Source of the DNA: Chrysochromulina tobinii
Taxonomy: Eukaryota; Haptophyta; Prymnesiales; Chrysochromulinaceae
Length of the DNA stretch: 41,820 nucleotides
Reading direction: 5' to 3'
NCBI GenBank assembly: GCA_001275005.1
Contig: JWZX01003044.1
Location: 1-41,820, forward strand
Positions 5,804 through 35,001 of the stretch are shown here, piece by piece. The translations under genes were made by a program, and so were the position numbers. Each line of letters starts with the position of its first letter. Positions within the stretch are counted from its first letter, which is position 1. The notes beneath the pieces are model-generated. The model did not search any database. It saw only the letters and a program-made list of their open reading frames with translations, and was not told where the DNA came from.

Positions 5804-6256
5804 GTCCGCGGGTCAATATGGAAAGTTGCCTACGAGAAGATAGTGGCGACACGATGCGCGGGGCTTAGCTGACGCCGCGAGATATGCCGAGACGTGATGC
5901 CGAGCAACGATCAGGCCCCGGTGCCCAAGCGCAACCGGAGTGAACGAGCGACCAGAACGGGACAGCGCGGACCCGACCGCGGAACCGCGCGGTCCGCGCC
6001 GCGTCCCGCCCGCCCTCTCCCGCCTCCCGGCACTCCGCTCTCCGGGGCAGCGCCTACCGCCGTACCGCGACTGGACCGCCTCGTCGCGCGCGGCCTTCCC
6101 TGGAGGCCAGAGCCGGCCTCGCCAGTCTAATTTTGTTTTCCGTTTTGATTTGTGTTTCGTCACAAACAACTGGTTTCGCGTTTATTGTGGTCTCACTCTG
6201 CTCTCTGTAACTGTATGCTCTCTGGCCTAAGAAATCACGCCCGTAGGCCGCTATCC
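5804..6256. other. Convergent intergenic region, no gene seen
   Basis: This region lies between the 3' ends of RabGGTase alpha (+) and the EF-hand protein (-). A strongly GC-rich block (about 5940-6120) is followed abruptly by a T-rich stretch on the plus strand (6126-6165). That stretch could contain 3'-processing signals, but I cannot name one. Confidence 0.4.
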
Positions 6257-8449
6257 CTATGCCGCCATGCCGGGCATCGTCGTCTCGGGCAGTCTCTCGC
6301 CGGAGCCAAGCGATCGAGCGAACATGTCAGTACGCTGCGAGAACATGGACACGTTGGCCGCCCCGCCCGTGCGCGCGCTCGCGGGACGCTTGTTGGCGAC
6401 GATCGCGTGAGCGGTCGCGGAAGCGCGTGCGGAGAGCGCCGGTGAGTGCGACGCGGGCGGTACAAGCACGCGGCCGCCCACCTCACGCCCAGCGCCCACC
6501 AGCCGACCGCGCGAGCCGCCGGCGCCACTGAGCGGCGTGGCCCCTTGGTCGGCATCGGCGGGCAGATGGCGCAGCAAGATCTGCTCTGAGGTGGAGACAT
6601 AGGGCGTGCGCGCCGTCTCCTCGATGCAAGTGGGCACCTCGCGAAACTCGGCGGTGCCGTCGAGGTGCCCTTGCGAGCCTCCACCTCTGTGGGCGGAGGC
6701 GCTGATGGGGCGCGAGGGGCGGCGCGCCGTCGACGAGATGGGCTGGCCGGGCGGCAGCGGGTATGGCACCGTGAGAAGTGGCTGGATGCCCAAGGGCTGG
6801 CCTGGCTTGGGACGCTGCTGCAGCTTGTGGACCAGGTGCAATAGCTCCTCATGGTTGGCTTTGGATTGTTGGATGATGCGGATCTTCTCAGTGGCCTCGG
6901 CCATCTGCTGGTCCTCTACCCGCGCGCGCATCTCAGCGTCGCGTCGCGCCTGCGCCATTCGCTCCTCGATCTCGCGCGCCAGCACGTGCAGCTGCTCGGT
7001 CAGGTGGTACTCGGTCGTACTCGCTGCCGCCGCCAGGGTACGATGCGTCACCTCATGCTGCGCGAGCTGCTTGCGGAGCGCGGCTATCTCGAGGCGTGCC
7101 GCCTCGAGCTCCGCTCTCGCCGCCTCCAGCTCCCTGCCGTCCGGCTTGTTCAGCAGCTCCTCGCGCACTGCGTCGCGCTCGAGGGCCACTTCCTCTCGGA
7201 GCTTGCGCGTATGCGCGTTGATCTCCTCGCGCATCGCATGCGCGTCCTTCGTGATCTCGCCGCGCAGGATGGCGCTCGCCTCCTTGACCTGATCGCCGAG
7301 CACCTCCAGGTTCGGTCCGAGAGCCCAGTGCAGAAACTCCCTACGCCGCTTCCCATCGATCAGCCCGAGCCACGCACGGAAAGCCATGCCGGCGACTGAG
7401 ACGCCCCAGCAGACGCGCTTCTTCGCCCGCAGCTTACGCATGTACCACTCGAACCAGGCGCGCACCACCTGCGCACCGAAGAGCTTCACCTTGCGCATGA
7501 GCTGCTTGCGCAGCACGGCCTCGCGCTCGGCGATCTGCGCACGCGACGAGTCTCGCCACGCGCCGAAGGCCTTGCATTCAGTGCCGCGGAGAAGCATGGC
7601 CATACCCTTTGCGAGCCCGCGGTTGCGCTCGGCGACGGCGGCGCGCACGTGGCGCTGCCATGCGACGAACGTCCTCACCATGCCCTGGAAGAGCCATGTG
7701 GTGACGAACTTTTGGAGGCCGCGCTCGTGCCGGACCGACGTGCGCCACGAGTCGATGATGTGCTGCTTCCACCATTCGTCACGCCCCATTAAGTACATCC
7801 TCAGCTTCTTGTTCTTCGCCTCCTTGTCGCCAAAGTGCGCGGTGCGCCACCTATCGAAGACCTTCAGCTTGAGCGCTGTATCGCCGCCGCGGATCATCGC
7901 CGCCGCGCGGCTCATCTGCGCCTTCTTGGTCGACACTAATTTGTGAAGTGCATGCAGGCACTTGCGGCACGGAGCGTACCGCAGGTTGCCGATCACCGCC
8001 ATGCGCTGCGCGTTCAACCTGCGAACGAGGTCGCGCCAAGCGTTGAATGCGGCCGTGGTGCACTTGCCCCTCCACTGGTTGATGGTGCCCTTCATCAGCT
8101 TGAGCTTGGTCTCCTGCAATCCAGCGTAGGCACCATTGATTCGCTCTGACAGGCGCACGACCGTCTGCGTGATCACACGCAGCAGCGCGCCGAGGCGCGG
8201 ATCGAGTGGCGCTAGGCCGTGCATCTCGCCAAACTCGATGGCTCCGCTGGAATCCAGATCGAATCGGCGCAGCAGCATCTTCCAGCTCACCTCGTGGCTC
8301 AGCCCGGGAGCGTGCAGTGCGGCGACGCCTCGCTCCCAGTCCTCACGCGAGACGCTCCCGGATTCCTGGAAATCGAGCATCGTCAGCAGAGTGAGCAGGA
8401 ACGACAGATTGTTCCTCTCCGAGTTGAACTCGTCGTCATCGGAGGACAT
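6257..8449 (-). CDS. EF-hand protein with Sfi1-like Trp repeats and coiled coil
   Basis: This is a 730-residue probable cytoskeletal protein. The start is the ATG at 8449 (MSSDDDEFNSER); the frame extends upstream only to a GTG. Two EF-hand loops are visible. DFQESGSVSRED (residues 26-37) has Asp at position 12. DLDSSGAIEFGE (64-75) is canonical and should bind calcium. Residues about 130-390 hold at least seven spaced F/V-x-x-W-R/Q helices (FNAWRDLVRR, FDRWRTAHF, IDSWRTSVRH, FVAWQRHVRA, FGAWRDSSRA, VRAWFEWYMRK, FRAWLGLID). This is the pattern of Sfi1-type centrin-binding repeats. A coiled coil follows at about 400-570, then a Pro/Ser/Arg-rich tail with RPASARTGG-type basic motifs. A basal-body or centrosome role is inferred from the repeats. 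The 5' end faces the lumen-protein gene across 166 bp. Confidence 0.7.
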   Translation of the reverse strand: MSSDDDEFNSERNNLSFLLTLLTMLDFQESGSVSREDWERGVAALHAPGLSHEVSWKMLLRRFDLDSSGAIEFGEMHGLAPLDPRLGALLRVITQTVVRLSERINGAYAGLQETKLKLMKGTINQWRGKCTTAAFNAWRDLVRRLNAQRMAVIGNLRYAPCRKCLHALHKLVSTKKAQMSRAAAMIRGGDTALKLKVFDRWRTAHFGDKEAKNKKLRMYLMGRDEWWKQHIIDSWRTSVRHERGLQKFVTTWLFQGMVRTFVAWQRHVRAAVAERNRGLAKGMAMLLRGTECKAFGAWRDSSRAQIAEREAVLRKQLMRKVKLFGAQVVRAWFEWYMRKLRAKKRVCWGVSVAGMAFRAWLGLIDGKRRREFLHWALGPNLEVLGDQVKEASAILRGEITKDAHAMREEINAHTRKLREEVALERDAVREELLNKPDGRELEAARAELEAARLEIAALRKQLAQHEVTHRTLAAAASTTEYHLTEQLHVLAREIEERMAQARRDAEMRARVEDQQMAEATEKIRIIQQSKANHEELLHLVHKLQQRPKPGQPLGIQPLLTVPYPLPPGQPISSTARRPSRPISASAHRGGGSQGHLDGTAEFREVPTCIEETARTPYVSTSEQILLRHLPADADQGATPLSGAGGSRGRLVGAGREVGGRVLVPPASHSPALSARASATAHAIVANKRPASARTGGAANVSMFSQRTDMFARSLGSGERLPETTMPGMAA

Positions 8450-8615
8450 CCTCCTTTCGCTCGACCCAGCACCGGGTTGTTGACCAGCGCAAACCGGGAG
8501 CTCACCACAACGCGCGGCCTTCGAATGGAATTGACTTCTTCGGTTTCTCACGCTCGGTGCATTCGGTAACGTTTACATGTATCACTACATTGCACCTGAG
8601 GCTCGGAGATTTCAC
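8450..8615. promoter_or_regulatory. Short divergent promoter region
   Basis: Only 166 bp separate the ATG of the EF-hand gene (8449, -) from the ATG at 8616 (+), or 127 bp if the plus gene starts at the ATG at 8577. Both promoters and 5' UTRs must fit here, so it is a candidate bidirectional promoter. I recognise no specific element. Confidence 0.4.
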
Positions 8616-14632: not shown

Positions 14633-16430
14633 TCACCTGCCGCCCTTCTTGACCGCTCCGGTGCCCTTCTTCGCCTCCTTTCGCTTCTCCTTGTTCTCCC
14701 GCTTGTGCAGCCCGCGCATGGTCTTCGCTTTGAGTTCGTCACGGCTGTACGGGCGGTCGTCGTCGTCCTCATCTGAATCCTCTTCGGAGTCGTACGCCTC
14801 GTCAGTGGTCGTGGGCGCCTGGATACTGATGGCGTTGCGGCCGGCCGGCACCTGCGGGCCCTGGCCGAGGATCGAGGAGACGGGCGGCACCGGGTTCCCC
14901 TGCGCGTCGAGCACGCCTTCGCGTGCCTGCGTGGCCGCATACAGCTGCAAGATCTCGTTGGTACGCTGCTCGATGATGCCCAGGTACTGCATCATGTTCG
15001 CTTCCGTGACGCCTTCGTTGCCGAGCATTTCCAGGTTGGCGGGCGTGTTGCAGCCGATCTTGTTGAAGATCGACTGGATGCCCACCTTGAGCGCGTTCAC
15101 CGTCTTCATCGCCGCCTCGTACTTCTTCTCATACTGCTCCGCCTTGGCCTCCGTGCGCTGGAGACGGTCCTCGAGATCCTTGAGGATCTTCTTGCGCTGG
15201 TTATCCGTGTTGAGGCCCTGCCCCTTGTACTTCTCGATCTCGGCCTTGATGTCCGCGATCTGCTCCTCGAGCTTCTCGCACTCGCCGTTGAGCTCGTTCA
15301 CGTAGTTGAAGAGCGCAAAGTTCTGATCCTCGGCGTTGATGAAGGTGGTGACGAGCTCGTCAATGTCCTCGATGCCGGTGGCCGCCTGGATCTTGGCGAA
15401 GGCCTCCTCGTACGACTGCACCTTCTCCATCGAGGCGTGGATGGACGCCTTGTCCTTCGCGATGCCCCAGTTGCCGCGCAGCACCTTCTTCTTGAGCGAC
15501 TGCTCTTGCTCGACGGTCATGTCGCCGCGGTGCTCCTGCTGAGAGAGCTTCTCGCGCTCCTTCTTCATGAAGTCCTTCATCTTGCGGTCCTGCTCGATCA
15601 TCTTGCCAAGCTCTTTCCACTCCGCCTCGAAGTCACTCTGTTCCTTATCCGCCTGCGCCTTGAGGGCCTGCATCTCCGACTGCGCCGCGTCGCGTGCCTC
15701 GTACGCCTTGTTCGAGATCTCGATGATGCGCGCCATCTCCTTCTTCTTCTCGGCGAGCTCCTTCTCGAGCTTCTTGTAGATCTGATCGTACACGAGCCGC
15801 TCGCGCCGCAGATTGTCGATGTTCTCGCGCAGCCGCTTGTTGTTCGCGAGCGCCTCGTTGTACCGCTTCAGCGCCTTGTCAAGCCTGTTCTCAAGGATCT
15901 GGATCTGCTTGGCGATCGCCTGGTTGTTCTCGCGCGAGGCATTGATGCCGCCCATCTTCTGCCGCTGGTCCCAAATCTTCTTGTGCATCACCTCCATCTG
16001 CTTGTCCAGCTCCTGGATGCGCCGCTTCTCGAGCTCGATTTTGCGCGTATACATGTCGCCGGTGTCCTGGAGCTTGGCGATCTGCGCCTGCGCCGAGACG
16101 CTGTCGTACACCTTTGCATGGCGTCGCTCGAGGGAGAGCTCCTCCTTCAGCTGCTCATTGTCATCCTTGAGCTTATCGATCGTCGCCCTGCGAGGTCGGG
16201 ACGCGCGGCAGCGGTGAGCATGCCGGGCACGCTTTGACAAAGGCGCCTCGGAGGAGCACAACGTGTGTGGGAAATCAGTGCGGCCGTGTGTGGGCCATTA
16301 GTGCGGCCGAGTGGTGCGCGCAAAGCGCGCACCGTTCGTTGGCGAGCAGCTGCTGGCTCTCTGCGGAAAGCCTCACGCCCCCTTTGCTCGCCTGCGACGC
16401 ACGGCTGAGCTCGCCTTCGACTCCTGACAT
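14633..16430 (-). CDS. Outer dynein arm docking complex coiled-coil subunit (ODA1/CCDC63/CCDC114 family)
   Basis: This is a structural subunit of the docking complex that anchors outer dynein arms to axonemal doublet microtubules, equivalent to Chlamydomonas ODA1 (DC2). Exon 1 (16333-16430) starts MSGVEGELSRASQASKGG and ends SQQLLANE. Exon 2 (14633-16187) continues RATIDKLKDDNEQLKEE. The phase-2 intron 16188-16332 joins them in frame. The 550-residue product is almost entirely coiled coil, with the family signature GIEDIDELVTTFINAEDQNF and then LFNYVNELNGECEKLEEQI. It ends in an acidic stretch (EEDSDEDDDD) and a Lys-rich tail. Its length matches the algal protein. The start is the only ATG suitably placed upstream of the splice junction. 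The gene shows that this organism builds motile flagella with outer arms. Confidence 0.9.
16188..16332 (-). other. Intron of ODA docking gene (145 bp, GTGCGC...TCGCAG, phase 2)
   Basis: Splicing joins CG to G GCG ACG and gives LLANE-R-ATIDKLKDDN, a continuous coiled coil. The intron contains a 23-bp tandem duplication (16263-16308) whose two copies carry CACTAAT and CACTGAT on the sense strand, both resembling branch-point sequences. Confidence 0.85.
16263..16308. repeat. 23-bp tandem duplication inside an intron
   Basis: The units at 16263-16285 and 16286-16308 are identical except for three bases in the middle. On the sense strand each carries a branch-point-like CACT(A/G)AT. Confidence 0.75.
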
Positions 16431-18719: not shown

Positions 18720-19278
18720 TCCGCCGCCCGCGTCCGGTGGCTCGTGCACGCGACGCTGCGCGTCGTGCGACGGGCGGCGGGGCGGGAGGCTCGGTCGACC
18801 CGACGACAGGAGTCGAGGGCGTTTTTTAGAGCGTTTTGTACATGTCTGATCATGCGATTAGATGAGATCCTCTGTTTGAATACGTAGTCAGGAAACTGTC
18901 TACTGTGGATCACAATGACGATCTACTTCAATGTCGAATGATGTCGTGTGGTCCATACATTTTTAGATCTCCCCCAGCATCCAGGGGAGGCGGTAATTTA
19001 CGTGACTCGTGTGTCGTGAGTCGGTGACGCGACCTCCGTGCTTGAGCTCCGTCGAATCCGCGAGATCCATGCGAGATCCGTGCCTCGTTGCCGTTCTCGT
19101 CCGGGTGTGTCGCCACTCGCTCTCTGAGACAGCCGCGCTGAAGACTGCTGTGCTGGTTGCTGATCACACAAACCCGGCGCTGCCACCCACCAAGCGCCGC
19201 TGCCCACAGCAGTGGCACCCTCGCGAGCGCCGTCGCGGGCACCATTGCGAGCGCCTTCTGCTTCGGGAGCTCCCTCAA
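18720..19278. other. Intergenic, no gene seen
   Basis: This lies between the 3' end of the unknown plus-strand gene and the tandem repeat at the 3' end of the LRR gene. A minus-strand open frame covers 18928-19278 but shows no family features. Confidence 0.35.
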
Positions 19279-19379
19279 GACGAGGGGGTCGGCAGAGACC
19301 TGAGCAGCCTCATGACGAGGGGGTCGGCAGAGACCTGAGCAGCCTCATGACGAGGGGGTCGGCAGAGACCTGAGCAGCC
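19279..19379. repeat. 35-bp tandem repeat (2.9 copies) spanning the LRR gene stop codon, each copy with CAG|GT
   Basis: The units are at 19279-19313, 19314-19348 and 19349-19379 (partial), essentially identical. On the sense (minus) strand each copy reads ...GCTGCTCAGGTCTCTGCC..., so each carries a potential acceptor-donor AG|GT. The first copy contains the last codons and the TGA of the LRR gene. Because the unit ends each frame in the same peptide (RSLPTPSS stop), splicing out one or two units would not change the protein. Confidence 0.85.
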
Positions 19380-22940: not shown

Positions 22941-25900
22941 TCACTGTGGCTCCTCCCGCCGCTCCTGCAGCCTGGCGAGTTGCACGACTAGCTGCTGCGC
23001 CTCCACTGGTGCCATCAGTACCTCATCCTCCGAGCCAGCCGACCCCACCGCGTCTGAAGCTGTCGAGGCGAGCGCACAGTAGCGTGCTGAGAGCGCGTGC
23101 AGGTTGAGCCGCGACAGGAAGGCGGCGTACTCGAGGACCACTCGCGCTGCACCACGAAACGCAAATCCGTTGGGCGTTCCACGGCGCGCCGGGTGAGGCT
23201 CCCGCAGTGCACACAGGAGGAGCGCCGCCTTGTCGAAAGCGCTTTGCTCGAGCAGCCGCTCAGCGACCTCCTGCACTCGCCCGAGGGAGAGAAGTACCTC
23301 GATGCCGCGCTGGTGCTCGCCTGAAGCGAGCAGGTGCTCAGCCCACTTTCCTAGGACCGTATCCCGCTCCGACGCAGGCAGCGATGCCTTTGCGAGGGTT
23401 GCGGCATGCTCCCAACGGCCAGCTCGCTGTAAACGCTCGCATGCCTCAGCTCCTCTGCCAATCAGGAAGAGCAACGGCACGGCCAGCGGCAGCTTGCCTG
23501 CGGCGCACAGTCGGTCGGCACTGGAGGTGATCGCGGCGACCTGATGAGGGAGGCAATTCGAGTTCATTAGAAGCCATTCGAGGCCATCAGAGGCAATCAG
23601 AGTGCCATCAGAGGTGATCGCAGCGACCTGCATCTGCGGCGACACAAAGCCGGCCACAAGGCACGCGAGGAGAAGGTCGCGCTCCGTCTCCATGCTCGCC
23701 TCTGAGGCGTCCGAGCCACCGCCCGCCGTGAGGAGCAGCGAGATGGCAGGCAGCTTGGCGTCGAGTGAGATCGCATGGAAAGCCCCGCGGCGACACCCGT
23801 CGGCGGGAGGTGCGCGCGACGGAGCCATGCGTTCCTCGAGACGGTCAAGCTCGGCCGTGCGCACCTCCGCCGGCTCGCGGAGTGCGCCGTATATGGGGGG
23901 TAGATGAGGCGGTTCGAAGCCGCGGTCGTCGGATGGCGCGGCGCCAGCGGCGACCCCTGCGCCTTGCCCACCCTCAGAGGGTTCCGACGCCGTGGAGAGG
24001 TCACCGCAACCGATCGGCAGCGCGGGCGTGTCCGGGAGGTGTTGCCCCGGGGATGGTCCCGGGGATGGCAGCGGCGGCGGCGCGCTGGCGCGCCAGAGCA
24101 ATGCCTCCGCGACCGACCAGAAGCGCGCGTCTTGCTCGCACCCGAGGAGCTCTGCGGCGAGCCGGCAGCGCGTCGGCAACGTCGGCGCACCCCGCAGCTG
24201 AGCGACTCTCTCGCTCGGAAGGTCCGGGAGTGGCACGTCTGCCTTCGGTTCGAGTGAACCCCAGATATCGAGGTGGACCAAGTACGTCTGGTGGAGCAGT
24301 CGTTCGCGCCGCGAGGCGAGAGGTAGGCACTGACTCGCCGCTATCAAGCTCGTGCTTTCAGTGAACGTGAGCACCGGAGTGTTGCCTCGCGAGAGGTCTG
24401 CACGGAGCAGCCGGATGCAGCCATCGTCACACGCGATGAGCGGCTGGCCGGCCGTCGTGAAGCCGATCGCGATGGCGCGCGAGGGTGGCTGGGGCATCGC
24501 GCCGCTGATGATGCCCCGAAGAGAAGAGGACGGCTGGGGCAGCGTCCACGGTGGCGCGTGTGGCAACGTCCAGAGAGCCTGGTCCCCATCGGCAAAGAGG
24601 ACGAGGAGGAGCCACGCCGCCTTGGTGGGGCTGGGCGCATGCAGCGCGATCGACTTGACCATGCCGCGGTGCGTTGCGAGTGAGTGCCGGCACGCTGGCT
24701 CGGTGGCATGCCAAACCGAGAGCATCCCCTCGAGCGTGCCGCTGATGACCCACGGGCCACCGAGGGCGAGGGCCGTCACCACGCCATCCGCCAACTCGAG
24801 CTGCTCCGTCGAGCGATCTCCCGAGCGAGACGAGAGCAACTTGATCCCTCGCACCTGTATGTGGAAGAGCGAGCCATCCGGCACTGCGAACACCAGCTCC
24901 TCCGAGTCAATCAGCTGCGGGTCGGAGGCGGCGGGGTCGTCTGTCTTTGGGGCGGGCACGCTGCTCGCCGCGCTCAAACGCGAGGCGTCCGGCAGCCCGG
25001 GGCGCCAATCGAGCGCCGCGCCGCTCGGGAAGGCCACAAAGTGCGTCGCGAGAGGCGTGCGGGAAGGCAAGTCCCAGATCTGCAGCGGAGCGTCCTTGAA
25101 AATCAACACGAGCCGACGACCAGAGGGGGAGAGGCGCGCCCCGATTAGGCTGACGGACGCGCCGCGCCCGAGTGGGCACGCCTCCTCGCACCGCCCTGAC
25201 GGCAGCCGCAGCCACTGCACCGAGTTCTTCCACTGATCGCGCCCCTCCTGCACCGAGCTATAAGAGAGGACAGAGCGCCGGCCCAGCCATTGAAGCCCCT
25301 TGGCCGCTGACGCATGCACGTCGAACGCGCCGACGACCTCGGGCTTGCAGGCTGTGCGTCTTGCCGCGCCGCTGCTCGTCTCATCGCCCGCCCGCCCGAG
25401 GTCGATGAGCAAAATATGGCCGCTCTCCACACCGACGGCAAGGCAGCGCGAGGCTGTGTCCGTCGCGGACGATGGCAATCGAGTGTCGGCAGCAGGCTGT
25501 ACTGCAAGCGAGGTGATGGGAGATCCGATGCTTGCAAGCAGGCCGCATTGCTCTAGCTGCCACCCCTCGCCCTTAGCGCGGCCACCGGGCGCCGTAGCGG
25601 GCGGCTGATCGTACGGGAGGCGCCACAGCCAGATGCGTCCATCCGCCGAGAGGCCTCCGAAGCGCTCGCCGTCCGGCAGGCTCGGCCGGAAGCCCAGCAG
25701 GGAGCAGCCGCCCCCCTTGAGCAGCGGCACCATGGCGCGGAAGCCAAAGACCACGCGCACGTCGGGCGGTGCGGCTGGCAGTCGACCGCCTGGTGGTGGA
25801 CCGCCCTCGCACGCGGCATCGACTCCGAGAGTCACCGCTCCTTCCTCCCTCCGTCCCTCCTCCCTCCGTCCCTCTGCCCCTGAAGGCCGACCCTGGGCAC

Positions 25901-26864
25901 ACCGTTCCCAGCGAGAGAGGCATCCATCGTGGTGGGTGCCAAGCACCGTGGACGGTAGCGCGAGCGACTGCGCCATCGAGGTGAAGTCGTGGTCCGTGCG
26001 GTCGAGCCACACGTTGCCTAGGACGGTGCCTGCACTCAAATCCCACAGGATCAGCTCGCGCGGGAGCAGCAGGTAAAGTTGCGAGCTCTCATGCAACGAG
26101 TACTCGAGCTGCAGCAGACGCCCCTTGTCGGCAGGCTGCTGCCGACCGCGAGCGCCGCTGCTGCTGCCGCTGCTGCCCGCGTCCTTCTCGACGCCCGCGG
26201 CGTGACCAGGCACGAGGTGCGCAACCGACTGCATGGTCAGCCTCTGGGGCGGCTGACGAACCTCGAGAGGCCCGAACTGCATGAGGATGCCCTTGCCGCA
26301 AAACGCCGCCACGCGGCCCCCATCATGAGCGTCGAAGGCAGCGTCGTAAATGCTTTCCGGAAGGTCGACACGCCAAATGAGCGAGGCCGGGCCGACAAGT
26401 TTTCCGTCTACCAGGTGGCCAACCATCTGGCCGACCTGGTAGGCGGCGATCACGTTCGGCGAGTGCACGCAGACCAACACGTCGTGCCGACGCGGCAGCC
26501 AGTGCATTCGCAGCGTAGCTCGAGCGGGGGAGCCGCCAACGTCCGAGAGCCAGCAAAGAGGCACGCCGCGCCGCACGTCCCATATGGCACACTGGCCAGA
26601 CGCGTCAGCGGAGGCGAGGAGCACCGTGTCGGCATATCGCTCGTTGTCAAGCATCGTACATCGGGCCGTTGGCCGGGGCGCCCATCGTACCTCGCACACG
26701 TGCGCTTTGTGGCCGTCGAGGGATTGCACAATTTCTGCCGTCTCAGGGTCAACAATATTGATGACATGCTGCACGCCCACTGCCAGTAGCCCGTTGCGCC
26801 AATCGAGTGCATTGCGATTACGCTCGTGCGCGAGACCGGTGATCGTGCATGGCGAGGGCGGCAT
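22941..26864 (-). CDS. WDR11: WDR11-like WD-repeat protein
   Basis: In other eukaryotes WDR11 is a subunit of the WDR11-FAM91A1 complex that acts at the Golgi in endosome-to-Golgi vesicle capture; it also has ciliary roles. The N-terminus from the ATG at 26864 matches the family opening (MPPSPCTITGLA, DWRNGLLAVGVQHVINIVD, then SLDGHKAHVCEVRW). Two beta-propellers of WD-type repeats follow. The C-terminal alpha-solenoid has the family landmarks AGKLPLAVPLLFLIGRG, ERLQRAGRWEHAATLAK, VLLSLGRVQEVAERLLEQ and FDKAALLL. An in-frame ATG at 26975 would add 37 residues and is less likely. The open frame of 1307 residues includes a 29-codon segment (23541-23627) that is better read as an intron, leaving 1278 residues. 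A poly-purine tandem (about 25845-25880) encodes REEGRREEG in a loop. Confidence 0.88.
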   Translation of the reverse strand: MPPSPCTITGLAHERNRNALDWRNGLLAVGVQHVINIVDPETAEIVQSLDGHKAHVCEVRWAPRPTARCTMLDNERYADTVLLASADASGQCAIWDVRRGVPLCWLSDVGGSPARATLRMHWLPRRHDVLVCVHSPNVIAAYQVGQMVGHLVDGKLVGPASLIWRVDLPESIYDAAFDAHDGGRVAAFCGKGILMQFGPLEVRQPPQRLTMQSVAHLVPGHAAGVEKDAGSSGSSSGARGRQQPADKGRLLQLEYSLHESSQLYLLLPRELILWDLSAGTVLGNVWLDRTDHDFTSMAQSLALPSTVLGTHHDGCLSRWERCAQGRPSGAEGRREEGRREEGAVTLGVDAACEGGPPPGGRLPAAPPDVRVVFGFRAMVPLLKGGGCSLLGFRPSLPDGERFGGLSADGRIWLWRLPYDQPPATAPGGRAKGEGWQLEQCGLLASIGSPITSLAVQPAADTRLPSSATDTASRCLAVGVESGHILLIDLGRAGDETSSGAARRTACKPEVVGAFDVHASAAKGLQWLGRRSVLSYSSVQEGRDQWKNSVQWLRLPSGRCEEACPLGRGASVSLIGARLSPSGRRLVLIFKDAPLQIWDLPSRTPLATHFVAFPSGAALDWRPGLPDASRLSAASSVPAPKTDDPAASDPQLIDSEELVFAVPDGSLFHIQVRGIKLLSSRSGDRSTEQLELADGVVTALALGGPWVISGTLEGMLSVWHATEPACRHSLATHRGMVKSIALHAPSPTKAAWLLLVLFADGDQALWTLPHAPPWTLPQPSSSLRGIISGAMPQPPSRAIAIGFTTAGQPLIACDDGCIRLLRADLSRGNTPVLTFTESTSLIAASQCLPLASRRERLLHQTYLVHLDIWGSLEPKADVPLPDLPSERVAQLRGAPTLPTRCRLAAELLGCEQDARFWSVAEALLWRASAPPPLPSPGPSPGQHLPDTPALPIGCGDLSTASEPSEGGQGAGVAAGAAPSDDRGFEPPHLPPIYGALREPAEVRTAELDRLEERMAPSRAPPADGCRRGAFHAISLDAKLPAISLLLTAGGGSDASEASMETERDLLLACLVAGFVSPQMQVAAITSDGTLIASDGLEWLLMNSNCLPHQVAAITSSADRLCAAGKLPLAVPLLFLIGRGAEACERLQRAGRWEHAATLAKASLPASERDTVLGKWAEHLLASGEHQRGIEVLLSLGRVQEVAERLLEQSAFDKAALLLCALREPHPARRGTPNGFAFRGAARVVLEYAAFLSRLNLHALSARYCALASTASDAVGSAGSEDEVLMAPVEAQQLVVQLARLQERREEPQ
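23541..23627 (-). other. In-frame intron of WDR11 with duplicated junctions (87 bp, phase 0), introner-like
   Basis: On the sense strand CAG|GTCGCTGCGATCACCTC opens the segment, and CAG|GTCGCCGCGATCACCTC follows it, so a 20-nt unit (19/20 identical) is repeated at both junctions. The segment is 87 bp without stops, so it reads through as 29 extra residues with VAAITS duplicated. Removing it gives VSPQMQVAAITSSADRLCAAGK, which fits the WDR11 family without an insertion. Its end GCCTCCCTCATCAG and its internal CTGATTGCCTC and CTGATGGCCTCG recur in intron 29109-29196. Confidence 0.72.
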
Positions 26865-27605
26865 AGCGCCTTTCCGGGTGCGGCTGTCTTCGCACAAGAC
26901 TTCGTTCGAAGACTTCGTGTGTGGGGGAAGGGCCGCCCAGCCCCTTGGTGGGGGGCGCGTCTTCCCTCGCCTCATTCATTATTAGGAAAACACACCACGC
27001 ATAAAACAGCATTCACAGCAGGAGAGAGATGCTGCGAAGGACCCTCGAAATGAGACACATCATGCAGACGGAGTCGGAGAGCGGATCACGACTGACGACT
27101 GCACGTGCACCCTCACATGAACGAAGATGAAGCGAATTGCCATGCGAATTCCACACATGCACCGTGATATCGATTAGATATCGAAAGGATTAGAGTTGTC
27201 TGTTCGAAACGGTCAAACAACTGCGCTTTATCCGGATATGTCATGCTTGACCTTGTTCCGAGCATCCGAGGTGAGAGAGTCTGTCTTTCAGAGTACACTT
27301 CATACTAACATTTGACTCTTCACTCTAGTATACAACGAACTCCGGAACACGACACACTAGGACGAGGAGAGCGCACAGATACCCGTCTAGCGTCTTCTCA
27401 CAGCTCATCACGCGGCGCGCAGCGGCGGCGGCGGCGGCGGAGGCGGCGGCACCTTCCTCGCGGGCCAGCGGTACGTGCGGTCCCGAAAGTAGTCGCTCGA
27501 GCGTCTGCAAGGGCGTATTGTCTCGCATCGTCGCGCCAGTTGGCGGCGAGTTTGGGGAGCCGACGATTGACGATCGCGACATGCCGAAGTGAATGGATGT
27601 TTGTC
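26865..27605. other. Intergenic upstream of WDR11
   Basis: This contains the WDR11 promoter side and the 3' flank of the next minus-strand gene. It includes a GCG-triplet tract around 27415-27455 and a doubtful small minus-strand ORF (27325-27582). No other structure is supported. Confidence 0.35.
27325..27582 (-). CDS. Doubtful small ORF (85 residues)
   Basis: The ATG at 27582 opens MSRSSIVGSPNSPPTGATMR, then an amphipathic stretch (PLQTLERLLSGP), a poly-Ala run from a GCC-type triplet tract and a hydrophobic end (CALLVLVCRVPEFVVY). There is no family similarity. It begins 24 bp after the stop of the upstream minus-strand gene and could be that gene's 3' UTR. Confidence 0.2.
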   Translation of the reverse strand: MSRSSIVGSPNSPPTGATMRDNTPLQTLERLLSGPHVPLAREEGAAASAAAAAAARRVMSCEKTLDGYLCALLVLVCRVPEFVVY

Positions 27606-28091
27606 CTAGTTGGCACTCGCAGCATGCTCCTCCAGCAGCGCTAGCGCCTTGAGCAATCGCCAGGTCGGCGCGTCTTGAAGCGCTTGTCGAATTTCACTCA
27701 GCAGCGCGGTCCTGTTGTGCCCATCCTGTGTCGCATGATGGGATGCCGATGCACTTGTACTGCTGCTGCCGCGTCCACCTTGCTGTACCCGCCTCAAAAT
27801 AGCAAGCTCCTCGAGGTTGAGCTTTGTGCCGTTCGCGTACGACATCCACAGTGTGGCCGTTTGAGATTCGTAAGTTTCCGCAAGCCAAAGTTTGATCGAA
27901 TTTAACGTCTGATTACTAGCAAGATCATGTACACTTAGCCTCCTTCGCCCCTGTTTCGTCGAAAGTTGAACATGTACTTCCTCGACGCTTATGTTGTCAC
28001 GTGCGGACGGCTCCGAAGGATGCTCGACGTTTGTGAGAATCGACGAGACGCGCGGCGGCGGCTCCGCGGGCATGCACGACGACACTAGCAT
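27606..28091 (-). CDS. Small unrecognised protein, possible ubiquitin-like fold
   Basis: The protein has 161 residues if it starts at the ATG at 28091, or fewer from 28073. Residues about 35-110 (VHVQLSTKQGRRRLSVHDLA, then LNSIKLWLAETYESQ and LWMSYANGTKLNLEELAIL) have the strand-strand-helix-strand order and the 'L-x-Y-x-G-x-x-L' spacing of a ubiquitin-like beta-grasp. No diagnostic family residue is seen, so this is tentative. A Ser/His-rich linker and a C-terminal helix (LLSEIRQALQDA, LLKALALLEEHAA) follow. Its 5' end overlaps the start of the divergent gene at 28072, which makes the true start doubtful. Confidence 0.45.
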   Translation of the reverse strand: MLVSSCMPAEPPPRVSSILTNVEHPSEPSARDNISVEEVHVQLSTKQGRRRLSVHDLASNQTLNSIKLWLAETYESQTATLWMSYANGTKLNLEELAILRRVQQGGRGSSSTSASASHHATQDGHNRTALLSEIRQALQDAPTWRLLKALALLEEHAASAN

Positions 28092-29449
28092 GCACGACGA
28101 CACCAACGACCTCCTCAGCTACTGGGCTGAGGCAAAGCGCGCCAAGGACTTTGTCAAGTCCGACGCGCTGCGCGAACAGCTGCGTGCTCGCGGTGTCGAG
28201 CCTGAGCGCAGCGCGGCGGCCCCGAAGACAAGGTTGAAACTCGACGATCGATCCACAGTTGACGGGCCAGTGTTGGAATACATCACCGCTGCCGGCTACC
28301 AATCTGCACTGCCGCTCACGTATGTCAAAGCCTCCGATGTGCTGGCAGCGGCGAGAGCAGCGACCGGCATCACGGATGCCTGCGACAGCTTCATCCTCGC
28401 CTCACTGCTACGCCTGCTCGAGCAGGCCACTTCTTGCAAGGTGGTGCGGACCAAGGCATCGCATGCCAACCCGTGGACGGGCATCGCGGATGTGTATTGG
28501 GGCGTGACATGCTCGTCGCTCCCAGCCGCGCCGCTTGCGACGCCAGAGTGCTACGAGTGCAAGGACAACAAAGAGGAGAAGAAGGCTCAGCGAGCCGCGT
28601 GGCTGCGCGCGCGTGGCAAGCCGGAGCCAGACCCTCTGCGCAGCCGCATCGTCGGTAAGAATGCCGACGCGCACTATTCAATGTATACCAACGAGCTTCT
28701 CAGCTTGACGTGCGCGCCCAAGCTGCTTGAGCTCAAGCTGTTTCCATCTGCGAAGGAGCTCACGGAGAGTTTTTCATGCTTCGCCGCGGTGCGCGCTCAC
28801 CTGAGCAACGAGTTCCGGCCCGACGACCCGAGCGTGCTGCTCGTGTGCGTGGGCGATGGACTCACGCCGCGTACCGCGGGCCTCTTTTGCTTTCGGACCA
28901 AGTGGAAGTGCATCTCGGTCGACCCTCTGATGCGCGGGCCGCTCGGATTCCACAGTGACGAAACCCGCTGGTCGGAGCACATTGAGCGGCTCACAGCGCG
29001 TCGCGTACGGCTACAGGACGCGGCGCCAGTGCCGGCTGGCAAGTTTGTGGGCGAGCGCGTGCTGCTCGTGCTCCCGCATGCACACATAGGCCTAGACGAG
29101 TGCCTCCAGTGCGTGCGAGGGTCCGCCCAGCTCGGCGCGGTGCTGATAGCCATCTGATTGCCTCCCTGATGGCTACCTGATGGCCTCGCTCATCAGGTAC
29201 GTGCGATGGTCCGCCCAGCTCGGCGCGGTGGTGATGCCGTGCTGCAACTGGTACCTGGGCGCGAAAGGGTGCGGGCCACCGCTGCATGAGGACGATGATC
29301 TCGGCGTGATCTCGCCCCACCGGCAGGTCAGCATCTGGAGGTGGGCCCCGGGCGATGCACTGCCCCCTGCCGTCCCGCCACCCGATGCGGCGCCTCCGCC
29401 ACCCGATGTGGCGCCTCCGCCACCTCTGGACGAGACGCGGTTCACATGA
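28072..29449 (+). CDS. Putative Rossmann-fold (SAM-type) protein with CysRS-tail-like N-terminal helix (two exons)
   Basis: Exon 1 (28072-29108) starts MHDDTSMHDDTNDLLSYW. Residues about 14-45 (WAEAKRAKDFVKSDALREQL, then RARGVEPE) look like the C-terminal helix pair of cysteinyl-tRNA synthetases. A helical region follows, then a Rossmann-like core (VLLVCVGDGLTPRTAGLFCF, KWKCISVDP) with a glycine loop and an acidic residue at the end of strand 2, as in SAM-dependent methyltransferases. Exon 2 (29197-29449) gives YVRWSAQLGAVVMPCCNW and a Pro-rich tail (three PPPD/PPPL units). Skipping intron 29109-29196 replaces an early stop (LGAVLIAI) with LGAVVMPCCNW, which suits the last core strands and a PCC-type catalytic loop. 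The total is 429 residues. An ATG at 27991 would extend it. The substrate is unknown. Confidence 0.6.
29109..29196 (+). other. Intron with 39-bp duplicated junctions (88 bp, phase 2), introner-like
   Basis: Positions 29109-29147 (intron start) and 29197-29235 (exon 2 start) are 36/39 identical at a spacing equal to the intron length. Donor GTGCGTGCG and acceptor CTCATCAG|GTACGTGCG both sit at the edge of a copy. The rest of the intron is built of about 11-bp units (TGATAGCCATC, TGATTGCCTCCC, TGATGGCTACC, TGATGGCCTCGC) and ends TCATCAG. The 3' 14 nt match the WDR11 intron end at 13/14. Splicing restores the reading frame to 29449. Confidence 0.8.
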
Positions 29450-31633: not shown

Positions 31634-32113
31634 GGCAAAGTTCAATTTCTCAGAGAAGGTGCTTTGAGTATGAAGGATAATCCATCGAGTGTGAAGCTTT
31701 AAGCGGCCCGGCCCGGCGGCTTATCGAGTATGGCTGTGATAATAGGGGGTCCAGGGGTCCCCGAGCTAATGGTAACCGCATCCATATGTACGCCGGTCCG
31801 GTGTCTTGGGTGTCGAATTATAATTTATAAACATTGGCTGTGAAGTGTCTTAAGTGTCGACAGTCGAAGTTGAGAGGAAACACACATTGCGCTCGAGCGG
31901 CGTGCAGGCGCAATTGCATCCCTCATCAAGGGACGCCACCCAGGCCGCCCCCCGCTCTGTGGGGAAACGTACTGTACCGGTAAAAAGACACCGGTGGGGC
32001 GGGAGTCGGCCAAAGGGCGACGGCCTAGGCGCTGCACGCGGTTCAGGGCGCAGTCGGCTGCCGTGTTTGCGTTCACAATCTGCGGTCACGCCCAGAACTT
32101 AATCGCTTGGCAG
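31634..32113. other. Divergent region between SNM1 and the TPR-RING gene
   Basis: This holds the SNM1 promoter and probably the first exon of the TPR-RING gene, which I cannot fix. An AT-rich patch lies at about 31815-31832 (ATTATAATTTATAA). A donor-like ATG|GTAACC at about 31770 could pair with the acceptor at 32112-32113, but the upstream peptide is unconvincing. Confidence 0.35.
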
Positions 32114-35001
32114 GCACAGTCACCTCAGTTGACGAGGCTAAAGGCCGCCTTGGTGTGCGTCTCGATGGCCAGGGCGCCCCCATCTCTGTGTCATGTCAGC
32201 ACCTCAAGAGAGAGGACAGCCCACCGTGGGACAAGTGCCGCCATGGTGGGCCACTGCCCGACCCTGCGATGATGCAAGAGTTCTTTGCACTGTTTACAGC
32301 TGCCAACCAACTCACGGCGCCCTGCCTGGAACACGTTCAACTTCTCGAGCCACATATACGGCGCTACTCTCCACCGCCCATCCTCTTCGCATCGACGGGC
32401 ATCGATGCGTACATCGAAATGGACTACTCAAACTGCCGGGGCTTTGCTGTGTGCGCGATCGTGCTCCAAGGCGTACGCGAAGAAGGCCACCGGCGCTTCT
32501 TTGCCAGCGTCGCCGCGCGATTGGGAGGCGGGGTGAGCTCTCCAGTATTGGCGACAGTAGAAGCTCAGCTGGCCAGGTGCAAAACAGCCACGGGCCTCCT
32601 CGAGGTGCTCGATTCATTTGCGAAGTGCCCCAAGGCAGTAGCAGGAGGCAGGGAATGGAGCTGCTTGCAGATCGCCGCGCACAGAGGTGTCGGGCTGAGT
32701 CAGAGCCACATCGACCCGGCACCCAGTCCCGTGGATGCCATCTATGATCGAGGTGCACATCCGCCGCCGCAGAGGACAGCTTGTTCGGCCGCGGCGCTCG
32801 CCGGAGAGAACCTCGCCCGTCTAGCGTTGCAATCTCTCGAATCTGGTCACTCGAGCAGTACGAGCACGCGCGAGAAGGCCCTGACCATCCGTGCTGCTGC
32901 CGGCGCATTGCTGGGGTTGCGTTCGGATGCGACGCACAGCGGAGAGAGGCGCGCTGAAGTGCGCGAGCTCATGCTCAGGTATTACGAGGCTGCAGAAGTG
33001 GCGGGCGGCTTCTTCATTGACGGCGGAGGCATGCCGCGGCTCGAGGCGTCGGTTACGCGATGCCTGACTGTGGGCGGCCGGCAGCTGCGCGCAGACACGC
33101 CGCTTGGTGACGAGGCGCTCCTCGCGTTTGAGATCATCAAAGAGGTGCAGAGCACGGCGGTCGCGTCTGCACTGCTGCGTGGGGGCATCGCCGCGCGCCT
33201 ATGCCACTTCATGTCCACCGAACACGATTTGGTGCTCGACCATAATGCCCTGAGCGCCTTGTGCAGTATTCTCGGGGCGGCGGAGACGACGGAGTTCGTC
33301 TCGGCACTTGGGCATGCGGCGTTGGCGCCCGTGGTGAGGCTCGCGGCCATTCTCATGCATGACTTGCTCACGGAGGACGTGCTCGACTTTAGCATGCTCG
33401 ACGTGTTGCTCCGGGTTGCGACCCTCATTGCCGGAGGCTCCGCCGAGCTTGCGCACTTGGTCGCCTCTACGAGCGTGCGTGGCATTCCATACTGCATCCC
33501 CACCTCGCTCCTTCTCATCCTCGTCCAGCACGCGCATGAGCAGCGGGCAGGCCGCACCGACGGCCCAAAGGCGGGAGCTTGCTTGAATGGGCTGGCCCAT
33601 CTCCCACCGATCTCGATGGCCCTGACCGGGCTGTACACCATCTCCCTCCACTTTGACCTTCGTGTGGTCGCGCTGTCGAACAGTGGTTCGTTTGTGGACG
33701 CTCTGGGCGAGTACGCGAGCTTTCTGCATGGGTTCGTGCATCACCAAGCAGTCGATCCGATCGCGCAGGAGTGCCTCGCGCGGCTTCGTCAATTCACGGC
33801 TTCGAGCGCCCCCCCTATGAATCCGTGTCCACTGCCGGTGGAGACGGAGGTGGAGCAGACGCGCCGGCTGAGGCAGTACGCTCGATCGCTGCACGAGGTG
33901 CGTGGGCGTGTGCGCGAGCAGCGACATGAGCAGCGCACGCGCGGTGTTGGCCCCGCCGTCGAGCGCGCGGACGACGCTCGTCAGCGCGGTAACCGTCTCA
34001 TTGAATCGAGCCGTTGGCACGAGGCGGCGGATGCGTACAGCGAGGCGGTGGCGGCACTCACAGGTCTGTTCGAAGGTCTGGAAATGGATGCCCACGCGGC
34101 GTGGTCGCTCGTGCTTGCGCTCTCGAACCGCGCCGAGGCGTTTCTTAAAATGGGGCGGCACGAAGCGGTCTTAGACGACTGCACGAACGCTTGGGTGCTA
34201 CTGGAGCGGCACGAAGGAGGCTTCGATGCAGCGAAGGCCGAGGCGATCGGCGTGAAGCTCGCACGGCGCGAGGCCGCAGCGGAGGCACAGCAGCGTGGTG
34301 CAGCACGTGCAGATGCGGCTCGACAGGCGGCGGCCGAACGCGGCCAGGCACGCACCGAGAGACGGCGCCGAGCTCGAGAGGCCCGAGTGCTGCGGCGGGC
34401 GCTCGAGACGGCGCCGATCTCGAGAGGTTCGAGCGCTGCGGCGGGCGCGCGGGACGGCGCCGAGGCAGAATCAGCGAGTGCGGAGGCTACTTCAGAGGCA
34501 CGCGCGGTTGGTGTGGGGACAACGTCAGAGGTGGAGGGGGCAGCAGACGAGCCCTACACGGTGTTGAGGGCCCTGCAGGCTGCTAAGACATCGTCGGAAC
34601 TGCGCACGGCACTCATTGCAGCCATGACGGCCGAGCGCGAGGCGCCCCTCGCCTCCGAGGCGTCCGAGATCGCCGAAGCCCTGCCGCGCGCCCGCCAACG
34701 GCTCAAGGAGCTCAAGCTTAAGGAGGATGCGGAGGCCAAGGCTGCTGCTGCTGAGGCTGCAGTGGTGGCGGCAGCTCCGGCGATGTCCGTGGCGGAACTT
34801 TCGGAGCCTGAATGCCGCATCTGCCTCGAGGGACGCGACGAAGGGGCTCTCGAGGACGTCTGCGGCCATGGGCACCTGTTGCACTTGGGCTGTGCTGCGG
34901 TGTGGCGAGAGAGGTGTCTCAAGCAGCAGCGAGAAGCGATGGAGCGTGGAGTCGCCGATCATCTGGGCCCGCACTGCCCAACATGTAGGCGAAGCATCTG
35001 A
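32114..35001 (+). CDS. TPR and RING-H2 protein, probable E3 ubiquitin ligase (5' end unresolved)
   Basis: The frame is open without an ATG until 32269. The segment before it (TVTSVDEAKGRLGVRLDG, later VSCQHLKRE) looks like a conserved beta-barrel opening of protist signalling proteins, so an upstream exon spliced at CTTGGCAG|GC (32113/32114) is likely. The middle 500 residues are helical and armadillo-like. A TPR pair lies at about residues 618-710 (GNRLIESSRWHEAADAYSEA, LSNRAEAFLKMGRHEAVLDD). A long charged helix (about 710-900) leads to a C-terminal RING: CRIC, CGH, HLGC, then CPTC. The C3-x-H and H-x2-C pattern is RING-H2-like, but the gap before the last Cys pair is unusually long. The product would be a cytosolic E3 ligase. 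A 46-bp tandem duplication (34361-34464) lies in the charged linker. Confidence 0.72.
34361..34464. repeat. 46-bp tandem duplication within the TPR-RING coding region
   Basis: The units 34361-34406 and 34407-34452 are highly similar, with a partial third copy (GACGGCGCCGAG) at 34453-34464. The unit length is not a multiple of three, so the copies are read in different frames (RRRAREARVLRRALE, then SRGSSAAAGARDGAE). Confidence 0.8.

Follow-up and report, generated by a model that had tools for sequence, protein, structure and literature searches.

The introners characterised previously, according to the passages of the cited literature drawn on here and below, show target duplications of 3-9 bp, signs of DNA transposons, and inverted repeats or none (Gozashti et al. 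2022, PMC9860276). In the survey concerned, likeness between introns was assessed at both of their boundaries, and families of low complexity were taken out. For ascomycete introners a route via RNA, reverse splicing, has been proposed (PMC9860276), and an account of seven routes of intron gain treats spliceosomal retrohoming and reverse transcriptase (RT) template switching as variants of intron transposition (Yenerall and Zhou, PMC3443670). Described here is a pair of introns, introner A in a WDR11-like gene and introner B in a second gene, in contig JWZX01003044.1 of the haptophyte Chrysochromulina tobinii, whose whole length of 41,820 nucleotides was analysed and is referred to as the window (it is the complete contig C1885, one of the 2,253 contigs that make up a 53.15-Mb genome). 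The GC content of the window is 59-69% in 2-kb steps; the published assembly of Chrysochromulina tobin is given as 59 Mb, with 63.4% GC and an average of one intron per gene (PMC4580454). Introners A and B belong to a large, recently active family of mobile introns.

Likenesses to described systems are several. As with the introners of Gozashti et al., there is a many-site family of similar introns, and as in Symbiodinium the 3′ splice site comes with the element and the 5′ one from the duplicated target (both PMC9860276); fungal introner-like elements are, again as here, multiplying introns (PMC4457414). In contrast to the 3-9 bp of DNA-transposon introners, however, the duplications here are of variable length, 17-42 nt, elements differ in their 5′ ends and the body is satellite-like (PMC9860276). 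The introners of a Chrysochromulina sp. metagenome-assembled genome (TARA MAG, Fig. 2C), with duplications of 4 bp where those here are long, carry the 5′ splice site and take the 3′ one, the opposite of the present arrangement, and the ascomycete families are reported to be without target duplication (PMC9860276), against the long duplications of the present family, in which the start of a copy may lie within the source intron. Gain by tandem genomic duplication or double-strand-break repair shares with the present case exon direct repeats at the intron ends and a duplicated exon that gives the GT, but the insert here copies another intron and is not merely duplicated exon or random filler (PMC3443670). 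Given target-derived 5′ ends and a repetitive body, a survey of the design mentioned would, as far as that account of its methods goes, probably exclude such a family. Among the matches listed in a literature search that took in neither bioRxiv nor most subscription journals, no haptophyte introns of this structure were recognised, and none gave an account of introns copied in part with duplications both long and variable. As a class introners are ordinary; it is the anatomy and a traceable source-target pair that are unusual.

Two introns and their genome-wide relatives

Positions of the two introns and their genes in the window are as follows.
22941..26864, minus strand: WDR11-like gene with introner A, 1278 aa once spliced (Pfam; homologue P0002 has the same spliced length)
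23541..23627, minus strand: introner A, 87 nt, GT..AG (from sequence and homologues)
23611..23627, minus strand: 5′ copy of the introner A target duplication, the first 17 nt of the intron, giving the 5′ splice site
23541..23610, minus strand: introner A body, of ~10-nt TGATNGCCTC-type units with terminus CCTCATCAG
23524..23540, minus strand: 3′ copy (exon) of the introner A target duplication, 16/17 identical to the 5′ copy
28072..29449, plus strand: gene with introner B, 429 aa spliced; homologues found
29109..29196, plus strand: introner B, 88 nt, GT..AG; a TGA is met if it is unspliced
29109..29147, plus strand: 5′ copy of the introner B target duplication, 39 nt, the first part of the intron
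29148..29196, plus strand: introner B body, with terminus CTCATCAG
29197..29235, plus strand: 3′ copy (exon) of the introner B target duplication, 92% identical over 39 nt

An earlier, sequence-only reading of this DNA had placed the two introns at these positions, with lengths of 87 and 88 bp and strings in common, and all of this is present in the sequence, the shared strings being GCCTC(C/G)CTCATCAG, CTGATTGCCTC and CTGATGGCCTCG. The direct repeats that it reported at the flanks, of about 20 and 39-41 nt, are real: that of introner A is 17 nt counted from the GT and 94% identical, or 20 nt with the shared CAG, and that of introner B is 39 nt. Its loose units of ~11 bp are indeed repeat units, of a period nearer 10 nt, and while its naming of WDR11 is upheld by Pfam, which matches the first and second beta-propellers, 'Rossmann-type' for the other gene finds no counterpart, the pre-intron part of that gene having no Pfam family. 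The body of the introners is shared repeat, not duplicated exon.

Within the window the exact 14-mer GCCTCNCTCATCAG has only its two introner occurrences and, with up to 3 mismatches, shows no excess over shuffles (23 versus 20.9), while CTGATNGCCTC with up to 1 mismatch occurs 12 times versus 3.8 expected, a number reached in 0 of 100 shuffles. The yield of the whole genome is of a different order. The 20-nt 3′ motif CTGATNGCCTCNCTCATCAG, with up to 3 mismatches, is found at 2,611 + 2,794 = 5,405 places versus 9 + 1 for the reversed control, and exact TGATTGCCTCCCTCATCAG at 438 + 441 (control 0), directly followed by GT at 298 + 292 of them; these figures are places, many in arrays, and not intron counts. 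Sequence similar to introner A in particular is present at at least 67 further genomic places. The genes with introners are unrelated, encoding WDR11, an asparaginase, FtsZ and a ubiquitin hydrolase. Spread of the family is uneven, since 66.8 kb made up of five arbitrary contig stretches and the window hold only the two known pattern matches where the genome average leads to an expectation of 6.8, with zero matches in the 25 kb from the five arbitrarily picked contigs. The proposal of an introner-like family, which further copies had to sustain, thus has thousands of pattern copies behind it, together with the adjoining repeats at 58 of 131 ends and the empty or joined sites in relatives dealt with below.

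Some other features of the window may be recorded. ATTGCATCCCTCATCAA stands alone at 31912-31929, in non-repeat sequence upstream of an open reading frame (ORF) at 32029-34998; it may be what is left of a decayed introner end, or a chance occurrence. Tandem duplications of 35, 46 and 23 bp with 86-98% matches lie at 19273-19379, 34359-34464 and 16262-16313 respectively; that at 19273-19379 is without introner units, and the three lengths resemble those of the target duplications. No Rfam family reaches gathering score in the window, and the folding of introner A, introner B and one body is no stronger than that of shuffles (z -0.26, -0.29 and 0.55). The one exact match to the 20-nt pattern in viral contigs (a single scan, with records near this genome possibly outside it) lies in apparent coding sequence of a prophage-like bacterial contig and was put down to chance.

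Anatomy, vacant sites and splicing

Anatomy was assessed in 20 stretches picked for hits, five arbitrary ones and the window, 255 kb in all. An element consists of a target copy, units of ~10 nt (TGATNGCNTC) and CCTCATCAG, at whose end lies the junction with the second target copy; the 3′ end is constant, at the splice acceptor, and 5′ ends are variable. A direct repeat adjoins 58 of 131 sense 3′ ends (score at least 14), the controls from the same DNA being 129 of 2000 random positions and 46 of 512 other CAG/GT sites, a background that is above zero because the sampled loci contain arrays. The remaining 73 ends are without a repeat at that exact place, some being arrays or decayed. The 58 ends represent 48 distinct elements, of which a first filter removed 15 (body outside 25-145 nt, or TGATNGC units in the duplication) to leave 33, and a strict filter a further 3 whose duplication fits the unit pattern, to leave 30, though one of those three, L022 3058, is probably a true element. 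In the strict set duplications are 17-42 nt long with a median of 25.5, their copies are identical in 15 of the 30, a GT stands at the start in 20, and the preceding base is G in 20. Intron lengths are distributed 11/11/8 over the three frames, and for the 33 elements of the first filter have an interquartile range of 73-91 nt. Elements that lack the GT need another 5′ splice site, either inside the duplication, as a GC donor, or upstream (L013 and L021 are examples). A maximum duplication of 77 nt, obtained before the strict step, was discarded as inflated by repeat units, and a first pass with relaxed 3′ ends, giving 102 'distinct' elements, was contaminated by antisense GGTCATCAG arrays and replaced by the sense-only set.

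The place of the best repeat relative to the 3′ end is also pertinent. Among 70 repeats at the 131 ends, 25 are at offsets of -4 to 0, 15 are at the limit of -12 and are probably tandem copies, and 30 are elsewhere; about a third of the 22 cases with a positive offset have two tandem 3′ cassettes, the others being small mismatches (introner B included), arrays or unclear. By eye, upstream repeats of the 3′ exon are present at C862, C2174, C1728 and C807 also, and no inverted repeat beyond CTGATG..CATCAG was seen. Tandem runs that consist solely of the 3′ cassette CTGATTGCCTCCCTCATCAG and one further base, with a period of 21 nt, occur at L017 (C127) 6600-6686, L013 (C54) complement 6018-6058 and L030 (C245) 2599-2640, from which it follows that the acceptor cassette also multiplies alone. 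Duplication plus body is found in tandem with periods of 73-77 nt at L018 7087-7350, L019 (minus) 8490-8600, L031 2600-2760 and L023 6635-6800, where one short exon piece recurs between successive introners. At L022 4551-4639 there are two 3′ ends with GTGGCCGAGGTAGC between them, either a nested insertion or a rare carried-over source exon.

At the 5′ junction microhomology amounts to 3.9 nt versus a null of 0.45 (15 usable elements, k=5, self comparison) and, matched against the pool, to 4.2 versus 1.1 nt (25 elements), with the end of the duplication carrying on the repeat phase of the body. The match of 2.3 nt at the 3′ junction of 22 GT cases is inflated by two nested cases and by the CAG/GT consensus. 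Units within an element resemble each other more than shuffled ones do (0.731 versus 0.636; 0 of 5000 shuffles; 28 elements, in which a few parsed units are not true), so that amplification of units on the spot, or their repeated copying, occurs as well. Two bodies are no more alike when they share a contig than when they do not (permutation p = 0.53, 30 elements), which gives no sign of local templating.

Comparison with homologous proteins bears on both splicing and age. Introner A comprises 29 codons, in frame and stop-free, so frame alone is no proof of its splicing. Those 29 codons are exactly missing, at the level of protein comparison, from P0002, which is 91% identical to the WDR11-like protein and 1278 aa long, and from the more distant P0003, P0004 and P0007; P0001, 99% identical, retains them in translated form. 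The site of introner B is uninterrupted, again by protein comparison, in P0010-P0016 and in the MMETSP transcript P0018, and P0008 (98%) stops within introner B, exactly as in the window. The 88% identical P0013, which is without introner B, begins like a translated introner end (..LMVTDGLLHQ followed by VREHLS) and appears DNA-derived because it seemingly reads into an introner; P0009 (93%) terminates at that same place, with ..NAVRLIDP, as if an introner were there. A close relative represented by P0009 and P0013 thus seems to have an introner elsewhere in this gene, between FNA and VREHLS, and to be without introner B, and presence and absence of introners among the relatives of the gene seem to run both ways. 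Once spliced, the ubiquitin-hydrolase gene on C158 encodes a complete UCH domain (168.7 bits). Its two introner sites are uninterrupted in P0023 (88%); in P0024 (99%) both ends of the sequence look as if the two introners had cut it.

Four introner sites in three genes are therefore empty or joined in relatives that are 88-91% identical and occupied in near-identical sequences, these being protein-level data in which P0002 and P0023 could be spliced forms. The pattern points to recent gain. Homologues join exactly at the predicted junctions of introner A, introner B and the two ubiquitin-hydrolase sites, and introner B and those of the ubiquitin-hydrolase gene disrupt the reading frame, conserved proteins being restored once they are removed; on these grounds of reading frame and homology the introners appear to be spliced. 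Removal in silico of the duplicated GT introns made the longest ORF clearly longer in 3 of 8 locus strands (L016, L018 and L022, the lengthened ORF of the last spanning only 1 of 7 junctions), added 3 aa in L025, changed nothing in 3 strands and cost 3 aa in L020. Mechanical gene models, inflated in GC-rich DNA, were not used.

Source and target pairs and the route of copying

An intron of C19 (L027, minus) in the asparaginase gene, with a duplication of 22 nt, has a 62-nt body that recurs at C395, 98% identical over 62 nt and, in a second copy there, 100% over 58. At C395 the first part of that body (..TGACGGAACTCGAAAGGATCCGGA..) is the locus's own duplicated target, 49 nt with one mismatch, present also in the C395 exon after the last CATCAG. 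The C19 copy includes 24 nt of this exon-derived duplication and ends at the C395 acceptor, and the C395-derived piece occurs nowhere else in the C19 stretch examined. One base is diagnostic, a T in the C19 intron as in the intron copies of C395 where the C395 exon has a C. The exon-derived start and this T/C base make the C19 intron a copy of the C395 intron, begun inside its exon-derived part, and the direction from C395 to C19 is firm. It is thus the intron sequence itself that moves. In a second pair, C107 (the FtsZ gene) and C1396 are 100% identical over 68 nt that end at the acceptor, the match going on for TG on the 5′ side and GTG on the 3′ side; since the exon copy of C1396 contains GAACTCCG, C1396 is probably the source. 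A search for source pieces across the examined loci gave, beyond unit-like matches, only these two pairs and one 16-mer, CGCCCGAGACGACGCT, which belongs to the duplication at L019 (C172, minus, 8491 and 8564) and is found also in the RT locus L040, possibly by chance.

The best explanation, to which somewhat better than even credence is given, is that source introns are copied up to their acceptor from starting points that vary, probably by reverse transcription of the excised intron RNA at a staggered nick. The copy would start at a variable point in the source intron, at times within its exon-derived duplication, run to the exact 3′ splice site CCTCATCAG of the source, and enter a new gene ahead of a suitable base, mostly GT, where a target cut of long stagger would duplicate some 17-50 nt. 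The 5′ target copy, mostly beginning with GT, would become the new 5′ splice site, and the element would supply the 3′ splice site and CTGAT/CTAAT units, which we take to resemble a branch point; with one site from the target and the other from the element, splicing would restore the old message. The template would be excised intron RNA ending exactly in CAUCAG. The nicked target would prime its copying, in the manner of target-primed reverse transcription, the other strand of the target would anneal by microhomology to the repeats of the complementary DNA, and the activity would be borrowed from an RT of the long interspersed nuclear element (LINE) type. Target-primed reverse transcription of LINEs and short interspersed nuclear elements (SINEs) leaves duplications of variable length, a 3′ end that is fixed, a 5′ end that varies and 5′-junction microhomology, hallmarks common to the introners here, though the sequence moved is here a spliceosomal intron ending at its acceptor, there is no A-rich tail, and a partner LINE was not found among 12 RT loci. 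The first three of these hallmarks, as traits of retroposons without long terminal repeats, are all present, and with the fixed end at the acceptor, the variable 5′ ends, the long variable duplications and the 5′ microhomology, nick-primed reverse transcription fits. LINE-type RTs are present, so a source of the enzyme exists: loci L039, L042 and L043 match LINE-1 ORF2 chains in the PDB (the top chain for two of them, 8c8j, is labelled only 'RNA-directed DNA polymerase'), and an RT_RNaseH domain is present in 3 of 9 RT loci scanned. The suspicion, voiced from the letters alone, of a mechanism other than cut-and-paste is supported by the variable duplications and 5′ ends, the 5′ microhomology and the copied exon-derived source sequence. 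That the route was through RNA is, on the evidence of sequence, close to an even matter but a little short of it.

A number of observations weigh against copying from excised intron RNA. No link between RT and introner was found among the 12 RT loci (2.5-3.7 kb each, 14 further RT places listed being outside them), and CTCATCAG is present in sense in only 1 of the 12 (L043), there within coding sequence and without units. Likeness of units within an element is not explained by a plain 5′-truncated copy of one master without later slippage, and under any mechanism a 3′ end fixed at the acceptor could be the result of survivorship. Of five target introns, the three with non-repeat 5′ pieces in C1728, C33 and C54 gave no convincing source, the partial matches C1753 (85%, for C33) and C862 (82%, for C1728) sharing repeat units only, without the odd piece; and the direction from C1396 to C107 is not firm, as 8-9 nt could be microhomology and the copying have gone the other way. 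Others of these observations accord with copying of DNA, the main rival though a rather unlikely one, in which the nascent target strand, in microhomology-mediated break-induced replication or theta-type end joining, pairs by microhomology with an introner already present, is extended along that introner's tail and jumps back to a point upstream at a (CA)G/GT match, so generating the long direct repeat. Such template switching accounts for almost the same set of findings. It predicts microhomology at both junctions, which is seen at both, stronger at the 5′; the 3′ match in the 11 non-GT cases, 2.0 versus 0.44 nt, is better predicted by it than by the RNA route. C19 and C395 share GTACGG, 6 bases past the acceptor, before diverging. 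After CATCAG the GT is missing from the 5′ copy in L012 4553 and L022 1626, and L022 4604-4639 has two 3′ ends with a non-repeat piece between; it is possible that all three carry source exon bases. Tandems of duplication plus body, as at L018, L019 and L031, are also in its favour. On the other side, both traced copies stop at the source acceptor, though selection for splicing might explain this, C1396 and C107 share only GTG past it, no long piece of source exon was identified at the inspected junctions (the 22 positive-offset cases), and local templating is without sign in the contig comparison of 30 elements.

Other explanations fare less well. A non-autonomous DNA transposon moved by a transposase, a miniature inverted-repeat transposable element (MITE) type of introner, is improbable here, even though such introners are known and one family in a Chrysochromulina sp. 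has 4-bp duplications (PMC9860276): with 17-42 nt in the strict set and as many as 49 at C395, the duplications have no short fixed length, the 5′ end is variable and may fall in exon-derived sequence of the source, and by eye the inverted repeat is no longer than CTGATG..CATCAG. Tandem exon duplication at AGGT sites, or satellite expansion, with the repeats made by slippage and no mobile element involved, would account for a duplicated exon that supplies the GT, and from the unit likeness of 0.73 versus 0.64 some slippage is likely; as the sole origin it is refuted by shared source-specific sequence, included in the 34-68 nt of identical body at unrelated loci, and we regard it as very improbable. 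That the insertions are not introns, but satellite insertions, either in-frame or selfish, and either translated or tolerated, is scarcely credible. The stop-free frame of introner A would suit it, as would the ORF being clearly longer after removal in only 3 of 8 locus strands, but frames are broken by introner B and the ubiquitin-hydrolase introners and conserved proteins restored on their removal, lengths fall in all three frames, and homologues join exactly at the predicted junctions. A fuller version of copying through excised intron RNA, put forward tentatively and with credence somewhat below even, is that these are retro-introners: excised introns would be reverse-transcribed into nicked DNA, and any intron with such a tail would seed 5′-truncated daughters, thousands per genome.

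Meaning for intron gain

The question of how genes come by new introns is an old one and still open, and many of the algal introners described behave like small DNA transposons. With a retroposon-like anatomy, a traceable pair, and sites empty or joined in relatives, births of introns can be followed, and routes through RNA and through DNA separated, in one alga. The family also suggests that surveys which require likeness at both intron ends, or which drop repetitive introns, overlook families of this kind. Should the introns prove to be retro-introners, source exon sequence carried over with the copy would make single jumps traceable.

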